Positions 11,855 to 64,000 of a DNA stretch of 64,000 bases are shown in pieces. Source of the DNA: Gemmatimonadota bacterium. Its GTDB lineage: Bacteria > Gemmatimonadota > Gemmatimonadetes > Gemmatimonadales > GWC2-71-9. Both the position numbers and the translations under genes were made by a program. Under the pieces are notes generated by a model. That model had not been told where the DNA came from. It saw only the letters and a program-made list of their open reading frames with translations, and searched no databases. Position 1 is the first letter of the stretch. Each line of letters starts with the position of its first letter. Location: NCBI GenBank assembly GCA_009692185.1, contig SHZT01000010.1:1-64000 (forward strand). Direction: 5' to 3'.

Positions 11855-12913
11855 CTAGTCTACTCGCTCCAACCGGCTGTTCGGGCGGTACTTCCGCCCG
11901 GCCTTGGCGACGGATTTCCCGTCCACCATAACCACGTCGGCGGTGAAATCAAAACGCCCCTGGAACAGCGACGAGCCCACGCCGTACACGTCCACCGGCA
12001 CCTTTTCCTTTTCGAACTGGCGGATCTTGTCCACGGTGAAGCCGCCGGACACGATGATCTTCACGTGCCGGAAACCGGCCTGGTCCAGCGCGCGCCGCAC
12101 GTTCCACACCAGCTGGGGGTTCACGCCGGTCGGCTTGATGATGCCCATGTCCGGAATGATGGACTTGTCCACCATGGTTTCCGAGGTGTCCAGCCGGACC
12201 CCGTAGAGCTTGTCGCCCAGGGCCCGGGCGGCGGCGAGCGAGTCTCCCACGCAGTCGTTCCGGAAATCCACCAGCGTCACGAGGCGCACGCCCTCGGGCA
12301 TGTACTCCGCGAATTTCGTCGTGGCGAGCACGGTATCGCCGCCATAGGCCGCGATGATCGCGTGCGGCACCGTGCCGACGCCCTCGGAACCCCACCAGGA
12401 CGCCTGCGCGTCGGTGGAGACGCCGATCGCCCCGGCGATGTGCGCCGCGTAGCCGTCCCCGGTCTGCACCAGCCAGTGATCGTGCCGCGCCGGGAAGAAC
12501 ATGACTTCCTTTGGGCTGGCCGCCTCGACCACGGCCCGGGTGTTGGTGCCCACGCGGGTACGCCGGGCGAGCACGCCGAGGTAGAGCGTTTCCAGGTTGG
12601 CGAACGCGTCGTAGGGGCCCTCGATGGTCATCACGGTTTCCCACGGCTCGATCGGGTCGCCGTCGTAGAGCGCGTGCACCACGAGCTCGGGCCAGGACTG
12701 GGAGCAGAGCTTGAGGATCGCGATGGATTCGTCGATGCCGCCTACGAAGGCGTGCGTCTTCACGAAGACCTGCATGAGGACCCTGGGGCGGTGCTTGTCG
12801 GCGAGCAGGACTTCCCGTGCCCGGACGAAATACTTATCCGAGTAGTACCCGTCCCTCATCTTCTCGACGGGCAGGTTGAAAATCGCCGGATCCAGTCGCT
12901 GGCGGCGTGGCAT
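11855..12913 (-). CDS. pncB: Nicotinate phosphoribosyltransferase
   Basis: The 352-residue protein resembles the compact type II NAPRTase group, with MRDGYYSDKYFVRAREVL near the N-terminus, the GVRLDTSETMVDKSIIPDMG phosphoribosyl region and a C-terminal VYGVGSSL segment. It joins nicotinate to PRPP to give nicotinate mononucleotide in NAD salvage. It is the first gene of the five-gene minus-strand operon that runs to leuS. No ribosome-binding site is visible: the bases before the ATG are C/G-rich, and a candidate promoter puts the transcript start within a few bases of the ATG. Quinolinate phosphoribosyltransferase is the main alternative, but the length and motifs fit NAPRTase better. Confidence 0.85.
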   Translation of the reverse strand: MPRRQRLDPAIFNLPVEKMRDGYYSDKYFVRAREVLLADKHRPRVLMQVFVKTHAFVGGIDESIAILKLCSQSWPELVVHALYDGDPIEPWETVMTIEGPYDAFANLETLYLGVLARRTRVGTNTRAVVEAASPKEVMFFPARHDHWLVQTGDGYAAHIAGAIGVSTDAQASWWGSEGVGTVPHAIIAAYGGDTVLATTKFAEYMPEGVRLVTLVDFRNDCVGDSLAAARALGDKLYGVRLDTSETMVDKSIIPDMGIIKPTGVNPQLVWNVRRALDQAGFRHVKIIVSGGFTVDKIRQFEKEKVPVDVYGVGSSLFQGRFDFTADVVMVDGKSVAKAGRKYRPNSRLERVD

Positions 12914-12924
12914 GGCGGGCAGGG

Positions 12925-12985
12925 AACGTACCCGTGCGCCGGGGCGGCATCAAGTTGACAATGGTCGCGCGGCGCCGATTAGATT
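12925..12985. promoter_or_regulatory. Divergent promoters for pncB (-) and the Omp85 gene (+)
   Basis: Plus strand: TTGACA (12955-12960), then TAGATT (12980-12985; spacer 19, or 18 to the register TTAGAT), seven bases before the ATG at 12993. Minus strand: TTGATG (12953-12948), 17-base spacer, TACGTT (12930-12925), eleven bases before the ATG at 12913. Both would give transcripts with almost no 5' leader. Neither gene has a Shine-Dalgarno sequence. Confidence 0.55.
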
Positions 12986-12992
12986 CGCCGTG

Positions 12993-14180
12993 ATGCGGAA
13001 TTTGTCGCTCGCGGCGCTCGCCGCCGTGCTGTACGCCACGCCCGGCGGGGCCCAGCTGCCGCACCTCATGCCGGCCGGCTCCCTCTGGCTGGACGTCAAT
13101 TACCCCAAGGTCTTCTGGACGCCCACCGAAGGGCTCACGGCTGGCGGGTACCTCGCCTTGATCCGCCAGCTCAACTTCGACAACGCCGATGCCGCACCTC
13201 CATACGCCGGGTCAGTATCGCTCAACGGGCAGATCTCCACGTCCGGCAGCCGCGACCTGACGGTCGAGGGGCGGTTCCCCGCCCTCGTGCCCGGGTGGCG
13301 CTTCGTGGGAACCCTCGACGCATCGCGGGAGGCGCGCGCGAACTACTTCGGCATCGGGAACGCCACGGTCTACGACGGCGACCTGGTCACCGGCGCCCAG
13401 GAACACTTCTACCAGGCGATCGAGACACGTTGGCTCGCGCGGGGCGAGATCCAGCGTCGGCTCACGGCCGGGCTTCGGGTCCTGGCGGGCTTTCACACCG
13501 AACGCTGGCGCATGAGTCCGCTACCGGGCCCGAGCGTCCTGGCCACCGACATCGCGGCCGGCGCCGACCCCACACTGGGCGTGAACACGACCGACGTCAC
13601 CGTACGCGCGGGCCTCGTTTTCGACACGCGGGACGACGAGCCCGCCGCCAACCGCGGCGTGCTGGTGGAGGCGATTCACGCGGTTACCATCGGCGGCGAC
13701 GTGGACTACTCCCGCACGACGGTGAGCGCCGCGGGATACGTGCCGATCGGCGACCCGGCGGGCCCCCAGTGGGTGCTGGCCGCGCGCGTGCTGGCGCAGG
13801 GCATGGGGGGAACGCCACGGGTTGGTTCCTACCAGCTGATTGAGGCCAGCGACCGGCCCTTCACGGGGATGGGCGGCGCGCTGTCCCACCGCGCGCTCGC
13901 GGCCAACCGGTTCCTGGGGCGGAACAAGATCCTGCTCAACCTCGACGCCCGGTACCACGTGGTGAACCTGCCGCGCGCGGCGCGCGCCTCCATCATGGTT
14001 TTCCTGGACGCGGGCCGCGTGTTCGAGGGAGCACCCTTCACGCTGACAACGACGGATCTCAAGGCGGGCGGCGGGATCGGGATTTTCGCCCAGCTGGGGA
14101 GGGCGGGCATCATCGGCACGACGGCGGGCGTCGGGCCGGACGGCGTAGTGCTTGATTTCGCGACGCGCTGGATCTACTAG
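12993..14180 (+). CDS. Omp85-superfamily outer-membrane beta-barrel protein
   Basis: The 395-residue product has a signal peptide (MRNLSLAALAAVLYATPGGA). A C-terminal barrel typical of the bacterial surface antigen (BamA/TamA/patatin-barrel) family follows, with alternating aromatic/hydrophobic strands, VRAGLVFDTRDDEPAANRGVLVEA and a final strand ending in an aromatic residue (FATRWIY). No POTRA domains are visible, so it is a short Omp85 member rather than BamA. It lies divergent from pncB. Similar lone barrels may serve in surface export or lipid/protein insertion. The exact role is unknown. The start ATG 12993 is chosen because the signal peptide begins there and a promoter ends seven bases upstream. 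Confidence 0.8.
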   Translation: MRNLSLAALAAVLYATPGGAQLPHLMPAGSLWLDVNYPKVFWTPTEGLTAGGYLALIRQLNFDNADAAPPYAGSVSLNGQISTSGSRDLTVEGRFPALVPGWRFVGTLDASREARANYFGIGNATVYDGDLVTGAQEHFYQAIETRWLARGEIQRRLTAGLRVLAGFHTERWRMSPLPGPSVLATDIAAGADPTLGVNTTDVTVRAGLVFDTRDDEPAANRGVLVEAIHAVTIGGDVDYSRTTVSAAGYVPIGDPAGPQWVLAARVLAQGMGGTPRVGSYQLIEASDRPFTGMGGALSHRALAANRFLGRNKILLNLDARYHVVNLPRAARASIMVFLDAGRVFEGAPFTLTTTDLKAGGGIGIFAQLGRAGIIGTTAGVGPDGVVLDFATRWIY

Positions 14181-14187
14181 CCGCCGG

Positions 14188-14868
14188 TTATTTCAGCTCG
14201 CGAATCTTGACCCCGCGCTTCGACAAGGCGCTCAGGTAGGGCTCGAAAGGCACGGCGAGGTAGGACACCTTCACGCCTGGCCCCGCGGTTTTTCCCGCCA
14301 GCTGCAACTGCCCCGTGATGGACAGCGAATACCCGGTCGTCCGCATCATCGCGCTGATGCCGCGCCGGGCGTCGGCGCGGTCCAGCAGCTCGAATCCCAC
14401 CGTCGTCTTGTGCGTCCCCCGTTTTCCTTCCGCCACCACGCGAAGCGCGATGAGGTCGGGGTCGGCGCGCCGCAGCTGCGGATCCACCACCGCGACGAAG
14501 AGGTCCATCGGCGCCACCTTCTGGCCCTTCACGTCTACCGGCTCCTGGGCGAACAGGCCGAGCTGGCGAATAGCGCCGATGATCTCGGCGTGCCCGGGGT
14601 ACCGGAGCGTCTTGTACTCCATGGTCTTTACCTTGCCGCCATATGTCCACGGCATGGTGGAAATGCCGCCGGCGGTGTGGAAGGCCTCGAGCGAGCCGAT
14701 CCCGGTGAACCGGATCTGCTCCAGCTCGGAAAGCGCGTCGACCTGTGCCGGCTTCCCACCGCGAAGAATCCAGGAGGGTGTGGTGTAATAATCGAGTACC
14801 CCCTCCAGCGAGTAGACAATGTTGTAGTTGAGGGGGGGGAAGAGGATCTTGCGGCAGGCCGCCGACAT
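14188..14868 (-). pseudogene. Saccharopine dehydrogenase-family protein, C-terminal part (frameshifted)
   Basis: This frame continues the Rossmann protein encoded upstream at 14832-15328. It begins in register at CRKILFPPLNYNIVYSLEGV and carries the catalytic/substrate domain (HTAGGISTMPWTYGGKVKTMEYKTLRYPGHA), ending KRGVKIRELK. The shift lies in a run of eight Gs (14832-14839; eight Cs on the coding strand). With seven, the sequence reads QDPLPPLNYNIV without a break. The combined protein (about 380 residues) matches the LYS9/lysine-6-dehydrogenase type of saccharopine dehydrogenase. A homopolymer error is the simplest cause, though natural slippage is possible. Confidence 0.75.
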
Positions 14869-54313: not shown

Positions 54314-57109
54314 CTAGGTCCGGACCGGCGTTGCCTCGTCCAGGATCGACCGCACGCGGGTGATCAGGTCCTGCACGGTCCACGGCTTCGGCAGGAACGG
54401 CACGGACGCCTCAAGGGAAAGCTTCGAGCGCGACTCCCGCCCGACGTAGCCGCTGGTAAACAGGAACTTCATCGTCTTGCCCAGTTCCCGCACGGCATCA
54501 TAGAGCTGCTGCCCGTTCATGCGCGGCATGACGACATCCGACAGGACGAGATCGACCTGGGCCCCCTCGGCGGTGAGCAGCTCCAGCGCCGCCTGACCGT
54601 CGGCGGCCAGCAGGACACGGTACCCGTAGTGCTCCAGGATCCGGCGTGCCGACGCACGAATCCGCTCCTCGTCCTCCACGACCAGGATCGTCTCTGACCA
54701 GCCCCTGAGGGCGGTTGCCGACGACGGTGCGTCCGCCCCGGCCTCGGCCGCGCCCTCCGCGGGCGCCGGCGTGCCGGCATCAGCCGTCACGAGGGGCAAG
54801 TAGATGCGGAACGTGGTCCCGCGGCCGCGCTCGCTGTCTACCGCGATATAGCCACCGCTCTGCTTCACAATTCCGTATACCGTCGCCAGCCCCAGGCCGG
54901 TGCCCTTGCCAAGTTCCTTGGTCGTGAAAAAAGGCTCGAAAATGTGGGCCTGCACGTCCGGGTCCATGCCCTCCCCGGTGTCGTGCACCGCGAGCAGCAC
55001 GTGCGGGCCGGTCATGGCGCCGGGATGCCGCCGGACGAACGCGTCGTCCAGGTCCCGGTGCGCCGTCTCCAGCGTCACCGTCCCGCCTTGGGGCATGGCG
55101 TCCCGGGCGTTCACGACCAGGCTGACGAGCGCCTGTTCGATCTGTCCCCGGTCAGCGCGCACGGATGCCAAGTCGGGGTGAAGCAAGGTCACCAATTCGA
55201 TGTCTTCGGAGATGAGCCGGCGCAGGAGGCGCTGCACGTCCCGCACGACGCGATTCAGGTCCAGCAGCTCCGGGCGCAGGAGCTGACGGCGGCTGAAGGC
55301 GAGCAGCTGGCGGGTGAGCGCCGCGGCGCGCGAGGCGGCCGACTTGATGTCGGTGGCATCTTCCAGTCGCGGGTCGGCCGGTGAGAGGCTCGCCAGCAGC
55401 AGCTCGACGGATCCCAGCATGGCCGTGAGCAGGTTGTTGAAGTCGTGCGCCACGCCCCCAGCCAGCCGCCCGATCGCTTCCATTTTCTGCGCCTGCCGGA
55501 GCTGCGCCTCGAGATCCCGCCGCTCGGTGACATCGCGCCGGGTGCCCCAGGCCCGCTTCAGCTGCCCGCCCTCGATGAACCCAATCAACGAATTCTGGAA
55601 TGAGCGGGGCCGCCCCTCGCGATCCCGATCCTGCGTCTCGGTGTCCGTCAGTCGGTACCCGGCACGGATGAACGCGCGGAGCATTTCCTCGTTGGTCGGG
55701 TCGGTCCGCACCAGGAGATCCCCCAGGCGGGTGCCGAGCAGGTCGCCCGCGGCATCGTAGCCGTACATGCGAGCCATGGCGTCGTTGCACTCGGCCAGGT
55801 ACGCGTGCCGGTACCAGTGCTCGATTTGCTCGTCTTCCGGGCGGGCCACCGGGAGCGGCGGATCCACCTCGAACCGGTAGATCGCTTCGGTGGAATGCGC
55901 GATGAACGAGCGATAGCGTTCTTCCGCGGTGTGGCGGGCGACCTCCACCTGCCGCTGTTCCGTGAGGTCCTCCACCACGGCCAGCCAGCACCGCTGGCCG
56001 GACACCTCCACCGGCGTGAGGCTCATGAGCGCGTCGTAGCACCCGCCGTCCTTGCGGCGGAACCGCACTTCGTGCCGATGCAAATACCCGTTGCGCTGTG
56101 CCAGCTCGAGCGCCTCCTGGCGCTCATCCTCATGACAGTAGAGCCGGGCCACGTTGCCCAGCTCCTCGATGTCCCCCGCGGTGTAGCCGCCCGGCGCCCG
56201 GATCGCGTCGTTGAATGCCAGCAGGTTCCCGGTCTCGTCGGCAATGCCGAGGCCGATGGGCGCGTTCTCGAACAGCGCGCGGTACAGGCCTTCCCGTTCC
56301 TTGAGCGCGTCTTCGGCCGTCTTGCGCTGGGTAATGTCGCGCGTCACCGCCAGCATGACGGGAGACGGAACTCCTGGTCCCTGTACCGCAACCGCATAGG
56401 ACTCGAGCCAGCGCCGCTTGCCCTTGAGCCCGGTCACCTCGAACCGCAGGGTGCGTGATTCTCCGCGGAAGACTTCCTCGCCAAACCGGGTGAAGGCCTC
56501 CCGATGCTCCGGCGCAATCAGTGCGATGACCGGAGTCCCCTTCACATCTTCGAGGCTGGCGGCGTCGATTACGGCGAGCCCCGCGGGATTCATGTGGATC
56601 ACTGTCCCGCCTGACGACACCAGCTTCACGCATTCGGGCGAGGCTTCTACGACCGCCTGGAACAGCATCTCCACCCGTTGCAGGTCGCTCACGTCGCGGT
56701 AGCGGATGACGATGGCACGGATCTTGGGGTCCTCCAGCCGGTTGAGCGCCACCAGCTGGATGGTATGATACGAGCCGTCGATCAGCCGAGTGCGGACATC
56801 GGCCGTCACGCCGACATCCGGCTGCTCGAGGAGGGACGTCAGCAGCTGGCGAGACCGGGCGAGGTCCTCCGGGTGCACGAGATCGAAGGCGCTCCGGCCG
56901 ATCATTGCGCCCGCGGTGAAACCCAGGATGTACCCGCGCCCGACGCTGGCGTTGAGAACCTTGCCCTCACGATCGACCAAGGCGACGACATCAGCGCTGT
57001 GCTCGAGCACCGTCCGGAGAACGTCGGCGCTGAGCGCGCCGGGGGCCGCCGCGCGCGGCTTGGCCTTGCGAGGGGCACGATGGCTGCGAGCCAGGCGCTT
57101 CTTCTTCAT
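54314..57109 (-). CDS. Soluble hybrid histidine kinase with four PAS domains and a receiver
   Basis: ATG 57109 gives 931 residues; upstream in-frame starts add a poorly conserved tail overlapping the divergent promoter region. The first about 22 residues are Lys/Arg-rich. PAS domains lie at about 25-145, 148-262, 272-385 and 398-530 (such as [20 protein letters not shown] and [16 protein letters not shown]). The HisKA domain has phospho-acceptor His555 in [11 protein letters not shown]. The ATPase has a NARDAM N-box, DTGEGM and [13 protein letters not shown]-terminal receiver has the acceptor Asp in VLSDVVMP. No membrane helix is visible, so it senses a cytoplasmic signal. No response regulator gene is adjacent. 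Confidence 0.9.
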
Positions 57110-57278
57110 ACCGATGAAAGTTGCGCTCCGAACGTTGGCGCCGCGCTCATGTCCGTGTCCACCGTTGTCGTAGCGATCAATGCGCAGTTGCTGGCCCGGT
57201 CGCGGGTGGCCGGCCCGGAGCGCTAGTACCGCAGCCGCCCGCGAACGACGTCTTCGGGACGTCTGGCAAGGAGGATGT

Positions 57279-57539
57279 ATGCAGCTCGATGCAAGAGGAT
57301 TCGGAATCGCCGCCGGGACAACGGCGGCCGCATTGTCGGCCGTGTGCTGGGCGGTGATCGCCGTGGCGCCGAGGGCCGCGACGCAGCTGTTCGGCATGAT
57401 GATCCACGTGGATCTCGGCAACCTGCTACGCGCCGCGACCGTGCCGAGCTTCGTGGTGGGCGTGGTCTGCTGGGGAGTCGGTACCGGCCTGGTATTCGGG
57501 TTCGGTGCCTGGGTCTATAACCGAATGCAGATCACGTGA
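57279..57539 (+). CDS. DUF5676-type small membrane protein
   Basis: The 86-residue protein (ATG 57279, GGAGG four bases upstream) has two hydrophobic segments: about 8-30 (GIAAGTTAAALSAVCWAVIAV) and 58-80 (SFVVGVVCWGVGTGLVFGFGAWVY). A Met/His-bearing loop FGMMIHVDLG lies between them. This fits the small DUF5676 membrane family often found beside heavy-metal efflux genes. It is the first gene of the efflux locus and is coupled to the next by GTGA. Its role is unknown; the MMxH loop could bind copper. Confidence 0.7.
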   Translation: MQLDARGFGIAAGTTAAALSAVCWAVIAVAPRAATQLFGMMIHVDLGNLLRAATVPSFVVGVVCWGVGTGLVFGFGAWVYNRMQIT

Positions 57540-58360
57540 CCGGCGCGAATGCGATGTCGGGCCTGCCGGCGCTTCCCGCCGTGGTAGCGGCCTTGGCGCT
57601 CCTGGCGGGCCCCTCGCAGCTCGCGGGGCAGATCGACTACCGGAATCTGGACGACGACCGCCCCACCGTTATCGAGGATGCCTACCCGGTGGAGCGATAC
57701 GCATTCGAAATCCTGCTCCCGTACCGCTTCGAGCGGGAACCTGGTGGCGGCGTCGTGCACGCCGCCATTCCGGAGCTTGCCGGAGGCCTGCTCCCGAACT
57801 TCCAGTTGGGGCTCAAGGTTCCCATCGCGGTCGAGCGCTCCGGCGGAGTCACCACGCGTGGGCTGTCGGGTCTCCGGGTCTTTGCACTGTACAACTTCAA
57901 TACTGAGAGTCGTGTCCTGCCGGCTGTGTCACTCCGGTTCGACCTCGCGCTCCCCGCCGGACCGCTTGGGGGCGATGTCACGCGCGCGGCCGTCAAGGCC
58001 ATCACCACGCGATCGTGGGGACGCAACCGCATTCACCTGAACGCGGCCTATTCCGTGGGACGAGCCGGCGTGGCCGCGGCGGCGGAGCCGTTAAGCCGTT
58101 GGTGGGCGGGAGCCGCGGTCGACCGCACGCTGTTTCGCCACAGCACGCTGGTGGTAGGCGAGGTCTACGCCGCTCAGGCGGAGCGCGGCAGCCGAGCCGA
58201 AGTGGTCGCATCGGTAGGCGTCCGACGACAGGTAACGCCGACTACCGTCCTGGACCTCGGCATTGCCCGGGGCCTTCGCGATGGGCCCAGCGCGGCGTTT
58301 ACCGTCGGCCTGTCGCATGCATTTGCCGTCGCCGCGATCATGCCCGGCGGCGGACGGTGA
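57536..58360 (+). CDS. Putative outer-membrane beta-barrel protein
   Basis: The 274-residue product starts at GTG 57536 (or ATG 57551) with a signal sequence (LPALPAVVAALALLAGPSQLAG). It then alternates hydrophobic and polar residues through about ten strands: YAFEILLPYRFERE, NFQLGLKVPIAVERSG, RIHLNAAYSVGR, TLVVGEVYAAQAERGS and AAFTVGLSHAFAVAAI. This suggests an outer-membrane porin-like barrel of the transporter/phenol-degradation MetA-like type. It overlaps the DUF5676 stop and the next start, so it is part of the metal locus. No specific relative is known to me. Confidence 0.65.
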   Translation: MTGANAMSGLPALPAVVAALALLAGPSQLAGQIDYRNLDDDRPTVIEDAYPVERYAFEILLPYRFEREPGGGVVHAAIPELAGGLLPNFQLGLKVPIAVERSGGVTTRGLSGLRVFALYNFNTESRVLPAVSLRFDLALPAGPLGGDVTRAAVKAITTRSWGRNRIHLNAAYSVGRAGVAAAAEPLSRWWAGAAVDRTLFRHSTLVVGEVYAAQAERGSRAEVVASVGVRRQVTPTTVLDLGIARGLRDGPSAAFTVGLSHAFAVAAIMPGGGR

Positions 58361-59385
58361 GGGGCCAGGTGCCTACGACCATCCTCAGGATCGGCGCCGT
58401 GCTGCTCCTTGCCGGCGCGGCCCGGCCCACCGTAGCGCCCGCCCAGGACCAGCGGGGCGAGCAGTTCTACTACCCGGGATCGTTCAACTGGGAGTTCCTG
58501 GGCCGCTACCCCGATGCCGCTCGGCTGTTCAACGCCTTCGATTACGGCCACGCGGTGCTATACGAACGGCTCTACACGGCCCGGGACTCGGCCGCCCTCT
58601 CGCAAGCCCTGGACCGGGAGTATCAGCTCCTTACGACCGACCTCCTGGTCCGGCCACCCCGGTTCGCGGTCGCCGAAGAAACCGTCGCACCCGGCTACGC
58701 CAAGCTCGCGTGGCGGGCCAAGCTGATGTTCGACTGGGCGCACGTCCTCCACCGACAGATCTACGATATTCACGCCGATGAGCGGCTGAGTGAAGCCCTC
58801 AAAGACTCGTTGGTCGAGCGGGTCACCGACTACTACCTGAGCAAGCGCGAAGCCGCTTTTGTCACAGCGCCGAAGTCCATGCATCTCATGGACGAGCAGT
58901 ACTACAGCCAGACCTTCCGTACTCGGTATCGCGCCTTCAACGGCCTGATCTGGGCCTACCACTGGCTTCAGGTCGGGCTCTACGAGCCGTTGCTCGCGGG
59001 CCGACAGGAGGGGGAACGGCAGGACGGCGTGCGAGCGACGATCACCAGGTTCTGGGACATGCTGCGCGACCCACCAACCAACATGCCCGGCATGATGCCC
59101 ATGACCGTGACGGTTGCCCCCCGCTTCACCCAGCGGCATCCGAGGGCCGCCGCCATTTTCGACAACCTGCACATGCTTCACGACATCATCAGCGACATTC
59201 TCGCGTCCGAGAAAGTCGGCGACAAGCGCCAAGCCATCTATGCGATGCTGGCAGAGTTCCAGGACGCGAGCCGGAACGTCATGACGCCGGCCGAATGGCG
59301 CGAGATGGGAGAGATGATGGGCGGCGTGGACGCGATGGGCGGTGCGGTCCCGATCCGGACCGGATCGGACCCCATCACGCCATGA
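58357..59385 (+). CDS. Uncharacterised secreted Met-rich protein of the metal-efflux locus
   Basis: From GTG 58357 (overlapping the previous stop) the product is 342 residues with a signal peptide (ILRIGAVLLLAGAARPTVAPA). The body is mostly helical with conserved-looking Tyr/Trp/His (YYPGSFNWEFLGRYPD, FDYGHAVLYERLY, WRAKLMFDWAHVLHRQIYDI, LIWAYHWLQVGLYEPLL). Two Met-rich stretches stand out: NMPGMMPMTVTVAP (about 240) and EMGEMMGGVDAMGG (about 315-330). Met-rich motifs of this kind bind Cu(I)/Ag(I) in other proteins. I do not recognise the family. The position in an RND efflux operon suggests a periplasmic metal-binding partner. Confidence 0.7.
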   Translation: MRGQVPTTILRIGAVLLLAGAARPTVAPAQDQRGEQFYYPGSFNWEFLGRYPDAARLFNAFDYGHAVLYERLYTARDSAALSQALDREYQLLTTDLLVRPPRFAVAEETVAPGYAKLAWRAKLMFDWAHVLHRQIYDIHADERLSEALKDSLVERVTDYYLSKREAAFVTAPKSMHLMDEQYYSQTFRTRYRAFNGLIWAYHWLQVGLYEPLLAGRQEGERQDGVRATITRFWDMLRDPPTNMPGMMPMTVTVAPRFTQRHPRAAAIFDNLHMLHDIISDILASEKVGDKRQAIYAMLAEFQDASRNVMTPAEWREMGEMMGGVDAMGGAVPIRTGSDPITP

Positions 59386-59433
59386 CGCAAAAGCGCGATG
59401 AAGCAAGGGACCACGTTCGTCCCTGACTGCGCC

Positions 59434-59463
59434 TTGACACCGTAACGTTCCGCCCCCTAGCAT
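59434..59463 (+). promoter_or_regulatory. Candidate leaderless promoter of the His-rich protein gene
   Basis: TTGACA (59434-59439), 18-base spacer, TAGCAT (59458-59463), six bases before the ATG at 59470. The -35 hexamer is a perfect consensus. The transcript would start at the ATG. A weak hairpin AGGGAC/GTCCCT (about 59407-59425) lies just upstream and may end the preceding transcript. Confidence 0.5.
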
Positions 59464-59469
59464 CCGCTC

Positions 59470-59799
59470 ATGCGCCTGTCTGGTATCCGACTGTCGAGGC
59501 TGGCGGTAGCAATCCTGCTTCTGGAATCAGCGGCGGGGTTGCCACTACCTGCTCATGCCGATCACACGGCGCAGGTTTCACACGTCGAGCAGGCACACGG
59601 CGGTCACGATACCATCATCATCCGGAGCACAGAACGTCAGAAGCCTGACGCGACGGTACTGGCACTGCCGGCAACGCAAGTAGTCCTCGCCGACCCGCCG
59701 GACGTACCGGTCCGAGGCACCCAGGCGGAGCCGAAGGCACCAGCGGCCCGGCCCCCTACCTGCGAAACGCTCCCCAGGGCACCACCGATTCTCCTCTAG
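59470..59799 (+). CDS. Small secreted His-rich protein of the metal-efflux locus
   Basis: The 109-residue product has a signal peptide (LSRLAVAILLLESAAGLPLPAHA). The mature N-terminus contains five histidines in twenty residues (HADHTAQVSHVEQAHGGHD), followed by a beta-like IIIRSTERQ, then a Pro/Ala-rich disordered tail. It could gather metal ions in the periplasm for the adjacent pump. No homologue is recognised; the gene is supported by its promoter, signal peptide and position rather than by known family. Confidence 0.55.
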   Translation: MRLSGIRLSRLAVAILLLESAAGLPLPAHADHTAQVSHVEQAHGGHDTIIIRSTERQKPDATVLALPATQVVLADPPDVPVRGTQAEPKAPAARPPTCETLPRAPPILL

Positions 59800-59910
59800 C
59801 ACCGATGCGCCGCCCGCGCAGTTTCGCGCGCGCGGAAATCGCTCTTTCGCCCGCCTCCGGCCCCGCCTGTGGCGTCGGCTGTGGACGGGAGAACTTGCTG
59901 GAGGTCCCAA

Positions 59911-61173
59911 GTGCATTTCAGAGCCGGAATCCTCATTGCCGCCAGCCTGCTGCTTGGCGTCCCGCCGGAGGCGCCCGCCCAGGAACCCGTGCGCCGGGTG
60001 ACCTTGGACGAGGCCCTCGCACTGTTCGCGTCAAACAGCCTGGAGCTGCGGATCGCCCGCGCCGGTGCGACCGAGGCATCGCTAACCGCGCGGCAGGCGG
60101 CCGCCTACCCCAACCCGGCGCTAACCGCGACTCACGAGGCCCTCGGCAGCGGGGCGGCCCGCTATCGCGAGTCGTATCTCACCGTTAGCCAGCGGCTGGA
60201 TTGGCCGTGGCTCGCCTCCGCTCGCCGGGCCGCCGCAGGACACCGCTCCGGGGCGGCCGTAGCGCGCGTGGCCGCCGACAGCATCCGACTCGCCTTCGAC
60301 GTGCGGCGCGCGTTCGGTGAAGCCGCCGCCGCCGAGGACCTGACCACCGCGCTTGCCGAGGCAACGGAGTTGGTGCGCCGGGCCGAGCGGCAGGCGAGCG
60401 AGCGCGCCGCGTCGGGCGACATTTCGCGTTACGAGTTGCGGCGTCTCCGCGTCGAGCGGCTCCGGTACGAAAACGAACTGGGGCAGGCCGCGAGTGCGCT
60501 GGGCACCGCGAGGCGCCGGCTGGGTGGCATGGTCCTTACCGGCGGCTCCGGAGAAGTGGCGCCCTCCGCGCCGCTGCCGGGACACCCGCCTCGCGTTTCC
60601 CTCGAGGTCGCCGTGGAGAGGGCCGTCGGCCTTCACCCGGCCGTCGCCGAGGCCGCGGCGTTGGCCGCGGCCGCCCGGAATGCCCGTCAGGCAGCCGCAT
60701 CGGACCGCTTGCCGGCGCCGACGATCACGGGCGGCTACAAGGGCCAGTCCGACGGGTTCAGCGGGTTGTTCCTGGGTGCCGGAGTGTCGCTTCCTCTGTT
60801 CGACCGCCGCGGCGCCGCCCTGGCCGCGGCCAAAGCGCAAGCCGAAGGATCCGCCACCGCCGCCGCGCTCGCAACCCGGCTCGCGGAGAACGATGTGCGG
60901 CGTACCCACGCGGCCTACGGGGCCGCGCTGGCCCGCGCCGCGCTCCAGGGCGACAGCGCAGAGGCCGAGGCGGACGCGCTGCTCCGAATCGCTCGACTTG
61001 CATACGAAGAGGGCGAGATGAGCCTCATTGAGCTCCTCGACGCCGTAGATGCGTACCGCACGAGCCGCGCGGCAGCCGTCGAAGCCGGCGTGAATCTCTG
61101 GACGAGTTTCTTCGATCTCGAACGCGCTGTGGGCAGCCCGCTGGCTGACCTGCAAAGGAAGGAGGGGCAATGA
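59911..61173 (+). CDS. TolC-family outer-membrane efflux channel
   Basis: The 420-residue product starts at GTG 59911, with GGAGG six bases upstream, and has a signal peptide (FRAGILIAASLLLGVPPEAPA). It is Ala/Arg-rich and almost wholly helical, with two repeats of the outer-membrane efflux (OEP) domain: DEALALFASNSLELRIARAG and VERAVGLHPAVAEAAALAA open each. The helical hairpins form the TolC tunnel. It supplies the outer-membrane exit for the RND pump encoded next. The stop overlaps the adaptor start (ATGA). Confidence 0.88.
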   Translation: MHFRAGILIAASLLLGVPPEAPAQEPVRRVTLDEALALFASNSLELRIARAGATEASLTARQAAAYPNPALTATHEALGSGAARYRESYLTVSQRLDWPWLASARRAAAGHRSGAAVARVAADSIRLAFDVRRAFGEAAAAEDLTTALAEATELVRRAERQASERAASGDISRYELRRLRVERLRYENELGQAASALGTARRRLGGMVLTGGSGEVAPSAPLPGHPPRVSLEVAVERAVGLHPAVAEAAALAAAARNARQAAASDRLPAPTITGGYKGQSDGFSGLFLGAGVSLPLFDRRGAALAAAKAQAEGSATAAALATRLAENDVRRTHAAYGAALARAALQGDSAEAEADALLRIARLAYEEGEMSLIELLDAVDAYRTSRAAAVEAGVNLWTSFFDLERAVGSPLADLQRKEGQ

Positions 61174-62672
61174 TGCGGCAGATTCTGCTTCGCACGGCAT
61201 TGGCCGGGGTCAGCACCGCCGCCATCCTCGCGGGATGCGCTCGCCGCTCGGGCATGGAGGCTGCGGACCTGGGCGGCGGTGGCAGCGTCACGATGTGGAC
61301 CGACTCCACCGAGCTCTTCATGGAGTACCCGCCGCTCATCGTGGGCACACCTGACAAGTTCGCGGTCCACCTTACCGATGTCACGGACTTCGCCCCCCTC
61401 CGGGGCGGAGATGTCCGCTTCGTGTTCACCCCGCGCGACGGCGGTGATCCAGTGGTGGTCGAGCAGAAAGCCCCGCGGGCACCGGGCATCTACGGCACCG
61501 AGCCAACGTTCCGGCGCGCCGGCGTGCACGATCTCATGATCGTGATCAGCAGTCCGCAAATCCGGGACACGATTCGCGTATCCGGACTCCGGGTGTACGA
61601 ATCCGCCTCGGCCACACCCGCACCCGGCGCCGCAGCCGAGGGCGGGATTCCGTTTCTCAAGGAACAGCAATGGAAGACCCCGGGGTTCGCGACGGCGTTT
61701 CCCGCGCGGGTGACGGTGTCGTCCACCATATCCGCCCCCGGGGAGATCCTGCCGGCGGCGGGGCGCCATGCCCGCGTTACCGCACCGGTGAACGGACTCC
61801 TCGAGTTCGGCGACATCGACGCCTCGCTGGCGCCAGGAGTGGCCGTGCGGCGGGGCCAGCGACTCGCCCTGATTACTCCTTCGATCGGCGAAGGAGGCAG
61901 TGCCCTGGCCGCCGCGCGACGGGAATTACGGGAAGCAGAAGACGAGCATGCCCGCGCGACGCGGCTGTTTGCGGCGGAGGCGATTCCCCAGCGACGCCTC
62001 CACGAGGCCGAAGGGCGTCTGGCGGCGGCCCGTGAGACGGCCGCCGGCGTAGGGGGATCCGCCGTCGCGGATTCCGCCGGACGGCTGGAATTGCGATCCC
62101 CGCTCAGCGGGATCGTGGTCGAACACCGCGTCATCCCGGGAAGCCGGGTCGAGGCTGGTGAACACCTCATGACGATTGTCGATCCGTCGGTGGTGTGGCT
62201 CAGCGTGCGGGTCCCGGCGAGCCAGGCCGCGGGCGTGCGGCGCACCCGGGGAGCCGGATTCCGGCAACCGGGCGAGAACACGCGCCATCATACCGGCCGC
62301 GTCCTCTCGGTCGGGGCCGTGCTCGATTCAGTGACCCGCACCATCCCGCTCCTGTTCGAGGTCGCGAACCCCGCGGGCCTCATCACCATTGGCAGCCTGG
62401 TCCAGGCCGACGTGGAAACGGGCGAGGGAGTCACGGGGATCGGCGTCCCCATATCGGCGATCCTCGAGGAAGACGGTCGCCCGTTGGCGTACGTCCAGGT
62501 GTCCGGCGAACGGTTCGAGCGACGGGACCTCGTGCTGGGCGGGCGCGACGCCACCCACGCACTGGTCCTCTCGGGCCTCTCAGAATCCGATCGGGTGGTG
62601 ACCGGGGCCGCCGTGCAAGTCCGCCTCGCGTCGTTGTCCACGGCAGTCCCGGCTCACGGGCACGAGCACTGA
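61170..62672 (+). CDS. RND efflux periplasmic adaptor with an extra N-terminal domain
   Basis: The 500-residue lipoprotein (AAILAGC at residue 22) is a CusB/CzcB-type membrane-fusion protein. An uncommon N-terminal beta domain (about 35-160; LIVGTPDKFAVHLTDV, VRFVFTPRDGGDPVVVEQ, GVHDLMIVI) precedes the lipoyl/hairpin region (about 175-330; APGEILPAAGRHARVTAPVNG, EDEHARATRLFAAEAIP). The beta-barrel and membrane-proximal domains follow, ending in a His-rich tail PAHGHEH. The extra domain looks like an Ig/FixH-YtkA-like module, possibly metal binding. It links the inner pump to the TolC channel. Confidence 0.85.
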   Translation: MMRQILLRTALAGVSTAAILAGCARRSGMEAADLGGGGSVTMWTDSTELFMEYPPLIVGTPDKFAVHLTDVTDFAPLRGGDVRFVFTPRDGGDPVVVEQKAPRAPGIYGTEPTFRRAGVHDLMIVISSPQIRDTIRVSGLRVYESASATPAPGAAAEGGIPFLKEQQWKTPGFATAFPARVTVSSTISAPGEILPAAGRHARVTAPVNGLLEFGDIDASLAPGVAVRRGQRLALITPSIGEGGSALAAARRELREAEDEHARATRLFAAEAIPQRRLHEAEGRLAAARETAAGVGGSAVADSAGRLELRSPLSGIVVEHRVIPGSRVEAGEHLMTIVDPSVVWLSVRVPASQAAGVRRTRGAGFRQPGENTRHHTGRVLSVGAVLDSVTRTIPLLFEVANPAGLITIGSLVQADVETGEGVTGIGVPISAILEEDGRPLAYVQVSGERFERRDLVLGGRDATHALVLSGLSESDRVVTGAAVQVRLASLSTAVPAHGHEH

Positions 62673-62680
62673 GAGATGCC

Positions 62681-64000
62681 ATGCTGAACAGACTCATTGC
62701 CTGGTCGCTCGCGAACCGCGTCCTGGTTCTTGCAGCCGCCGTCCTCGCCCTGCTCACAGGCGCCTGGACCGCATCGCGGATGCCGGTGGACGTATTCCCG
62801 GACCTCACGGCGCCGACCGTCACCGTGCTCACCGAGGCGCACGGCATGGCCCCGGAAGAGGTCGAGGCACTCGTCTCATTCCCCATCGAGACCGGCGTGA
62901 ACGGCGCCACCGGAGTGCGTCGAGTCCGTTCGTCCACCTCGCAGGGGATTTCCGTGGTCTGGGTCGAGTTCGATTGGGGCATGGAGATCTTTCGCGCACG
63001 ACAGATTGTCTCCGAGAAGCTCCAGACGGTGGCGAGCGCGCTCCCGCCCGGCGTTTCCGCCCCCCTGCTAGCCCCGGTGTCGAGCGTCATGGGCGAAATC
63101 ATGATGATCGGCCTCACCGGGCCCCAGACACCGATGGAGCTGCGGACGGTGGCCGACTGGACCATCCGGCGCCGGCTGCTGGCGGTGACGGGGGTGGCAC
63201 AGGTTATCCCCATCGGCGGTGACGTAAAGCAGTACCATGTGCTGGCGGACCCGGCCCGCATGCAGGCCACCGGGGTCACCCTCGAGGAGGTTCTCCGCGC
63301 GGCCCGGGGCTCAAATGAAAACGCCTCCGGCGGCGTCTACATGGACCGGGGACAGGAGTTCGTCATCCGCGGCATTGGCCGGATCCAGGGCGCCGACGAC
63401 ATCGCGAACACCGTGGTCGCGGTAAAGAGGGGAACGCCGGTACTCCTTGGCCATGTGGCAGACGTGCAGGTCGGCCCGGCGCCCAAGTACGGCGACGGGT
63501 CGGTGAACGCCAAGCCGGGCGTGGTGCTCGCGGTCCAGAAGCAGCCGGGCGCGAACACGCTGGATCTCACCCGCCGGATCGAAACCGAGTTGGCCGACAT
63601 GCAGCGAACGCTGCCACCGGGCATGACGATTCACTCGCAGCTCTTCCGCCAGTCCGATTTCATCTCGATCGCCATCCACAATGTGATCGTAGCGCTCCGG
63701 GACGGCGCAATCTTCGTGGTGGTGATCCTGTTTCTGTTTCTCTGGAACGTTCGCGCCACGGTGATCTCCATTCTGGCCATCCCGCTCTCGATCGTGGTGG
63801 CCATCTTCGCGATGCAACTACTCGGGGTGACGATCAACACCATGACCCTGGGTGGCATGGCCATCGCCATCGGCGCGCTGGTAGACGACGCGATCATCTA
63901 CGTGGAGAACGCGTTCCGCCGGCTCAAGGAGAACCACCACCTGCCCGCCGAGCGCCGCCGCCCGCCGCTGGCCGTGATCTATCACGCGGCCAGTGAGATC
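62681..64000 (+). CDS. Heavy-metal RND efflux pump (CusA/CzcA family), partial
   Basis: The 440 residues visible (ATG 62681 to the right edge) are the N-terminal part of a pump of about 1,030-1,060 residues: first transmembrane helix (LIAWSLANRVLVLAAAVLAL), VFPDLTAPTVTVLTEAHGM, porter domain (VSFPIETGVNGATGVRRVRS), GGVYMDRGQEFVIRGIG, then TM2-TM4 with IGALVDDAIIYVENAFRR. The acidic pair in the last motif belongs to the proton relay. The sequence fits the heavy-metal (HME) group, most likely copper/silver or cobalt/zinc/cadmium; substrate residues lie partly outside the window. It is nine bases after the adaptor stop. Confidence 0.88.
   Translation, partial: MLNRLIAWSLANRVLVLAAAVLALLTGAWTASRMPVDVFPDLTAPTVTVLTEAHGMAPEEVEALVSFPIETGVNGATGVRRVRSSTSQGISVVWVEFDWGMEIFRARQIVSEKLQTVASALPPGVSAPLLAPVSSVMGEIMMIGLTGPQTPMELRTVADWTIRRRLLAVTGVAQVIPIGGDVKQYHVLADPARMQATGVTLEEVLRAARGSNENASGGVYMDRGQEFVIRGIGRIQGADDIANTVVAVKRGTPVLLGHVADVQVGPAPKYGDGSVNAKPGVVLAVQKQPGANTLDLTRRIETELADMQRTLPPGMTIHSQLFRQSDFISIAIHNVIVALRDGAIFVVVILFLFLWNVRATVISILAIPLSIVVAIFAMQLLGVTINTMTLGGMAIAIGALVDDAIIYVENAFRRLKENHHLPAERRRPPLAVIYHAASEI

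Follow-up and report, generated by a model that had tools for sequence, protein, structure and literature searches.

The described systems that come closest to the locus considered here concern metal handling in the bacterial envelope. In the PcoA-PcoB and CopA-CopB systems, an outer-membrane barrel and a periplasmic copper-associated protein with Met/His-rich segments are encoded in one operon (PMC12509749). A second kind of system relies on nascent chains: CruR carries the arrest motif RAPP three residues from its end (PMC9426467), its arrest has been demonstrated in vitro, and RAPP is avoided in bacterial proteomes (PMC12992588). The genes most commonly found downstream of the similar CutF-like leaders are OEP genes (PMC9973294), and CutF-like clusters with His only have been published. 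Periplasmic copper handling in Gemmatimonadota and similar environmental bacteria is little studied. The locus described here starts at position 57279 of a 64,000-nucleotide window, the whole stretch of DNA that was analysed, which comprises positions 1 to 64,000 of contig SHZT01000010.1 (82,978 bp) in a 2.63-Mb Gemmatimonadota genome (GCA_009692185.1). Its genes would form two neighbouring units and not one module, namely a putative copper-handling pair of an outer-membrane channel and a helical secreted protein, preceded by a DUF5676 gene, and a TolC-adaptor-RND (resistance-nodulation-division) pump headed by a candidate leader gene. Taken as a whole, this two-unit explanation is one that we regard as rather probable.

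The core of the first unit is a pair of genes on the + strand, one encoding an outer-membrane beta-barrel channel of 274 residues (57536..58360) and the other a secreted helical protein of 342 residues (58357..59385), whose family was found in ~30% of the genomes sampled from the phylum (89/298). Similarity to the 342-residue protein identified 109 loci, a number that counts some contigs twice because they occur in two collections; 103 have room for the barrel gene, and in 100 of these it directly adjoins its partner. The distinct barrel loci number 81. Both domains lie in one open frame in about six loci, joined by a linker without a signal peptide, and on Methylobacterium plasmids (barrel E 4e-24), as well as in eight remote Gemmatimonadota loci, the gene order is swapped and the pair is kept. 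Adjacency, fusion and retention in swapped order provide strong evidence that the two proteins work together, and it is well supported that this undescribed, copper-linked combination of channel and protein is a conserved system; a literature search on the pair found nothing. One of the plasmids, from Methylobacterium fujisawaense (L161), carries the pair at 11977-14332, its 342-residue homologue having a Tat-like signal. A match in 'Kuenenia' (L111) possibly stems from a Gemmatimonadota contig that was binned wrongly, and the spread of the family is judged without it.

The barrel assignment rests on its AlphaFold2 model (pLDDT 91), on Foldseek, where the closest solved folds are FapF (E 2.5e-9) and a COG4313 channel (E 1.4e-7), and on the pairing itself. 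PF13557 (Phenol_MetA_deg) is matched by 25 of 72 barrel relatives, the window barrel not being one of them. A CopB/PcoB identity was considered and rejected, PF05275 being unmatched by every member of the barrel alignment; CopB is also absent from the genome (G000).

In the 342-residue family, six His residues (H65, H129, H132, H202, H272 and H275) are invariant among 73-87 homologues, and four Met residues (M175, M178, M247 and M249) are nearly so. The two Met-rich runs of the window protein, NMPGMMPMTV and EMGEMMGGVDAMGG, are present as previously described; M247, M249, M317 and M321 within them are conserved in the family and most of the others are local, while long Met/His-rich tails or a SnoaL-like domain occur in many members. 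AlphaFold2 predicts an all-helical structure (pLDDT 93, pTM 0.89) in which the invariant His residues span four helices, with two pairs arranged as HxxH. Foldseek returned no fold match to this model in the PDB (best E 0.47, TM-score at most about 0.2), Pfam gave no match over cut-off for the 73 members scanned, NCBIfam gave no family match, and PDB sequence searches with both this family and the barrel family yielded nothing significant. Several identities were considered and set aside: a tyrosinase-type protein, which finds no Pfam or Foldseek match; a multicopper oxidase of the PcoA/CopA kind, the family being all-helical and without Pfam matches to cupredoxin domains; and HD-domain, vanadium haloperoxidase and ferritin-like motifs, which neither Pfam nor Foldseek supports.

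The six His residues are retained in the Methylobacterium homologues at 27-30% identity; M178 and M249 are not. Among 21 remote homologues, all six are found in each of the ten that have a codirectional barrel gene and in none of the eleven that lack a barrel, and M175 is replaced by His in eight of those ten, as would be expected of a ligand swap. The conservation suggests that the six His residues may bind a metal, for which copper is the candidate favoured by the neighbourhoods set out below. Homologues without the six His or the barrel (L175, L177, L178, L179, L182 and L186) adjoin CopC/CopD, often followed by a secreted protein of ~350 residues, and form a second, different subfamily.

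The link with copper comes from the genes around the pair. CsoR lies within 8 kb of at least 16 of 72 core 342-residue genes in the 298 genomes, versus ~0.3 expected by chance, and CopC within the same distance of at least five. Across 80 loci, the neighbours include CopA-type ATPases (28), CopZ (20), CsoR (18), CopC/D (14) and RND proteins (10); the motifs CPC, YN and MxxSS, typical of Cu(I) transport, are present in many of these ATPases. Moreover, a small His-rich, usually Cys-containing open reading frame (ORF) stands directly upstream of the pair in 38 of the 81 distinct loci, versus 3 of 513 control genes. These leader-like ORFs display a hydrophobic N-terminal stretch, a Pro-rich end (PPTPPP or PEPPPPR) and Cx5C/Cx7C motifs; most of them pass the filters by which CutF-like proteins were defined in the literature (PMC9973294), and such ORFs are also found before the swapped-order pair. 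A leader or a copper gene accompanies the pair in 55 of 70 loci. No literature link between Gemmatimonadota and CutF-like leaders was found.

The second unit starts with a gene for a protein of 109 residues (59470..59799, + strand), which belongs to a family of six members from three taxonomic families, each located directly before TolC-adaptor-RND genes. A codon-based gene caller rejects this ORF; it is nevertheless taken as real because the six members share one layout. In all six, RAPP stands 2-3 residues from the C-terminus while the middle varies; in the window protein, RAPP occupies residues 103-106 (codons at 59776..59787, + strand, a predicted ribosome-arrest motif), the end reads RAPPILL, and TolC starts 111 nt further downstream. 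By eye, the N-terminus resembles a signal peptide, with a hydrophobic core and an AHA end. The protein is shorter than 150 residues, has PP among its last 15 and precedes a metal gene on the same strand, features by which CutF/CruR-like leaders are recognized. The cluster of five His residues noted earlier is there, within 18 residues (29-46); its motif, DHTAxxxHVExAHGGHD, is common to the three closest members and is His-only, with no CXXC or CXXXC. A single-sequence search allowing E up to 10 matched 82 genomes, three of them real (the own genome, G238 and G019) and the rest noise at E >0.008. The gene also appears to have its own sigma-70-type promoter, TTGACA-18-TAGCAT (59434..59463, + strand; 10/12 match), which ends 6 nt before the ATG and is the only match in 57100-60000; the G019 homologue is preceded by the same layout, TTGACA-18-TACGAT-ATG. 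A MerR-type operator within this promoter was looked for by eye and was unconvincing. Given RAPP, the His motif, the promoter and the place before TolC-adaptor-RND, the 109-residue protein is more likely a nascent-chain metal sensor, acting as a ribosome-arrest leader of the pump operon, than a scavenger.

The genes that follow, all on the + strand, encode a TolC/CusC/CzcC-type outer-membrane efflux protein (59911..61173; Pfam OEP E 1.1e-27), an RND periplasmic adaptor (61170..62672; HlyD_D23 E 4e-22, TIGR01730 over cut-off) with a weak YtkA-like domain at its N-terminus (YtkA E 0.025), and a heavy-metal RND pump of 1046 residues (ACR_tran, with TIGR00914 as the best model), whose gene runs from 62681 to 64000 in the window and extends 1821 bp past its end, to contig position 65821. 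When aligned to CusA (3k07) and ZneA (4k0e), the pump has S569, A619 and H663, encoded beyond the window, in place of the substrate Met triad of CusA (M573, M623 and M672), and the same S/A/H is seen in four other pumps of the 109-TolC-adaptor-RND unit (L122, L198-L200). Since the Met triad is absent and the leader is His-only, Cu(I)/Ag(I), the substrate proposed in the preliminary description, is not indicated for this pump; our guess is that it probably handles a divalent ion.

How the two units came to be neighbours is suggested by a duplication. A 171-bp copy (95% identical) of part of the 3' end of the 342-residue gene lies 6906 bp downstream, past the RND gene, where contig 66065-66274 (L003 2065-2274) is 96% identical to that end; the pump unit thus has one copy of this 3' end on either side. 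In G238, from the same genus, and in G019, the pair and the 109-pump unit are found on different contigs. A recent joining by recombination would fit, because the duplicated end flanks the pump unit and the two units are separate in those genomes. Downstream of the copy there is, by eye, an apparent cut-down cation-diffusion-facilitator frame without a Pfam match; copy and frame together may mark a recombination scar around the pump unit. DUF5676, an 86-residue membrane protein with two transmembrane segments (57279..57539, + strand; PF18926 E 2.6e-11, 44.7 bits, cut-off 27.6), occupies the upstream place where many relatives of the pair have a leader ORF, and is only loosely associated with the pair: of the 298 genomes, 20 encode it; the window is the sole case in which it directly adjoins the pair, and one other genome has it within 7 kb. 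Elsewhere it is found with HMA-like, DUF2933-like and membrane methyltransferase-like proteins, near two-component or CusCBA-type genes (L163, L164, L165 and L169), and also near CopA. A plasmid search with the window's DUF5676 gave no match, and no paper on this domain was found.

The mechanism that we propose assigns a separate task to each unit. The barrel would be a FapF/COG4313-type outer-membrane channel and the 342-residue protein, as its partner in the periplasm, a helical metalloprotein in which the six invariant His and nearby Met residues may hold copper. This partner would bind or oxidise periplasmic copper, cooperating with the channel as PcoA does with PcoB, and in many relatives the pair would be headed by a CutF-like exported leader. 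The second unit would be a tripartite exporter, probably for divalent ions, switched by the 109-residue leader, whose nascent chain may sense metal through its His motif and stall the ribosome at RAPP. A bolder version, which we regard as possible but doubtful, would make the 342-residue family a new class of cuproproteins, in which six His on a new helical fold would hold two metals. Each such protein would be tethered to an outer-membrane channel of its own and often controlled by a nascent chain that senses copper, and the system would be common in Gemmatimonadota as an alternative to PcoAB; in addition, the 109-residue protein would be a His-only RAPP leader whose metal is not copper.

Several observations weigh against this proposal. 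For the window pair, copper is deduced from relatives only, because the pair has no copper neighbours of its own: it lacks a CutF-like leader, CsoR, CopA and CopC do not adjoin it, and CsoR is absent from the genome altogether. Neither a leader nor a copper gene is present in 15 of 70 loci, and the Methylobacterium pair adjoins complex I-like membrane-arm genes (L161 15903-23231), not copper genes. With respect to the putative metal site, the correlation between His and barrel has a p of 2.8e-6 in a statistic that ignores phylogeny; the L188 homologue lacks the His although a barrel adjoins it on the opposite strand; and the His-less homologues also adjoin CopC/CopD, so that linkage to copper can occur without the His. 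As for the leaders, the DUF2946 model (PF11162) is unmatched at E up to 10 by seven pair leaders or by the 109-residue proteins, and the other loci show no more than a slight increase in ribosome-site pairing (p 0.02). The RNA between the 109-residue gene and TolC folds no better than shuffled sequences (z -0.7), and no stem-loop hiding the Shine-Dalgarno site is supported; with no such hairpin supported, a Rho-dependent route like that of CruR and a route like that of CutF are equally possible.

Other roles for the pair can be weighed against the same evidence. FapF, the closest solved fold to the barrel, is a polypeptide transporter, and the two proteins are exported and translationally coupled, so the barrel might be a secretion pore and the 342-residue protein a cargo acting outside the cell. 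The fusions, however, place the 342-residue domain on the C-terminus of the barrel, which is periplasmic in outer-membrane barrels of this type, and the core of that domain is compact and folded; we consider secretion highly improbable. The invariant His residues, with their two HxxH pairs over four predicted helices, the His that replaces M175 in remote members and the SnoaL-like domains or neighbours among relatives would also suit a redox enzyme that holds two metals at its site, for instance a new-fold oxidase acting on Cu(I) or phenols, with the barrel supplying or exporting its substrate. Neither fold nor sequence matches tyrosinase-type proteins, though, and the spacing is HxxH and not HxxxH, so that this role appears unlikely. 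Finally, the pair might import copper, with the channel admitting it, the 342-residue protein loading or storing it, and the leaders shutting the pair down at high copper, as CruR does with a TonB receptor. COG4313 channels have been implicated in uptake (PMC4493636) and importers can be under CruR-type leaders (PMC9426467), but the neighbours are mainly the detoxification genes CopA, CsoR and CopZ, and uptake seems doubtful to us.

The preliminary description had suggested, instead, that the four small proteins and the pump might be a single Cu(I)/Ag(I) module that captures the metal and delivers it to the RND exporter, and its gene set has proved to consist of real genes with the coordinates given above. 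All genes share one strand, the first three are coupled by GTGA overlaps, seen at 57536 and 58357, and Met and His runs are present; furthermore, RND pumps near the pair in three other loci (L040, L056 and L085) do carry the Met triad of CusA. Against this, RND homologues are near the 342-residue gene in just 13 of 109 loci, the 109-residue family always precedes TolC-adaptor-RND and has no homologue beside a 342-residue gene, DUF5676 is unlinked, the window pump is without the Met triad and a separate promoter stands at 59434. A single module is thus very unlikely; both outcomes named beforehand as telling against it, small proteins not conserved beside pumps and pump residues pointing to a non-thiophilic metal, were found in part. 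What survives is an undescribed envelope metal system limited to the barrel and the 342-residue protein, with copper as the likeliest metal. A mature periplasmic metal chaperone, as another role for the 109-residue protein, would agree with its predicted export and conserved His motif and would leave the Pro-rich end without a regulatory role; yet RAPP, a motif that proteomes avoid (PMC12992588), is kept near the end of all six members while their middle varies, so we judge a chaperone quite unlikely and favour the leader.

Further features lie around the two units. A large PAS-domain hybrid histidine kinase (window 54314-57109, minus strand) is divergent from DUF5676, ~170 bp away, and no metal-sensor domain was seen in it. 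About 7 kb past the pump, a Met/His-rich LTXXQ (Spy/CpxP-like) secreted protein (L003 8718-9215, minus strand) may be a metal-stress protein. Towards the end of the contig, a tRNA-Cys (L003 16126-16198) adjoins a tyrosine recombinase (L003 16306-17622), possibly the edge of a genomic island.

An outer-membrane channel and copper genes are now linked with a family that has six invariant His and neither a named domain nor a known fold. Through the leader ORFs, nascent-chain metal sensing would gain new kinds of downstream gene, and the pump's His-RAPP leader offers a testable case of such sensing without a Cys motif. When compared with known systems, the pair resembles PcoA-PcoB in combining a barrel with a periplasmic copper-associated protein and in its Met/His-rich segments, but its barrel is not CopB (PF05275) and the 342-residue protein is helical, without a multicopper-oxidase domain; within the 298 genomes, CopB occurs in 27 and the 342-residue family in 89. 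FapF and the COG4313 channels share the predicted barrel fold at 12-14% identity, with another partner and context. The leaders are similar to CutF/CruR (DUF2946) and CzcI in being small, putatively exported proteins encoded directly before metal genes, with metal-binding residues and a Pro-rich or RAPP C-terminus (PMC9973294, PMC9426467), whereas CXXC is lacking from the His-only motif of the 109-residue family, and the pair leaders have their distinct Pro-rich ends and Cys spacings, PPTPPP or PEPPPPR with Cx5C/Cx7C. Lastly, the pump genes are clustered in the same order, TolC, adaptor and heavy-metal RND, as in CusCBA and CzcCBA/ZneCAB, but at the positions of Met573/623/672 the window pump differs from CusA, having S/A/H, and its residues there differ from those of ZneA too.

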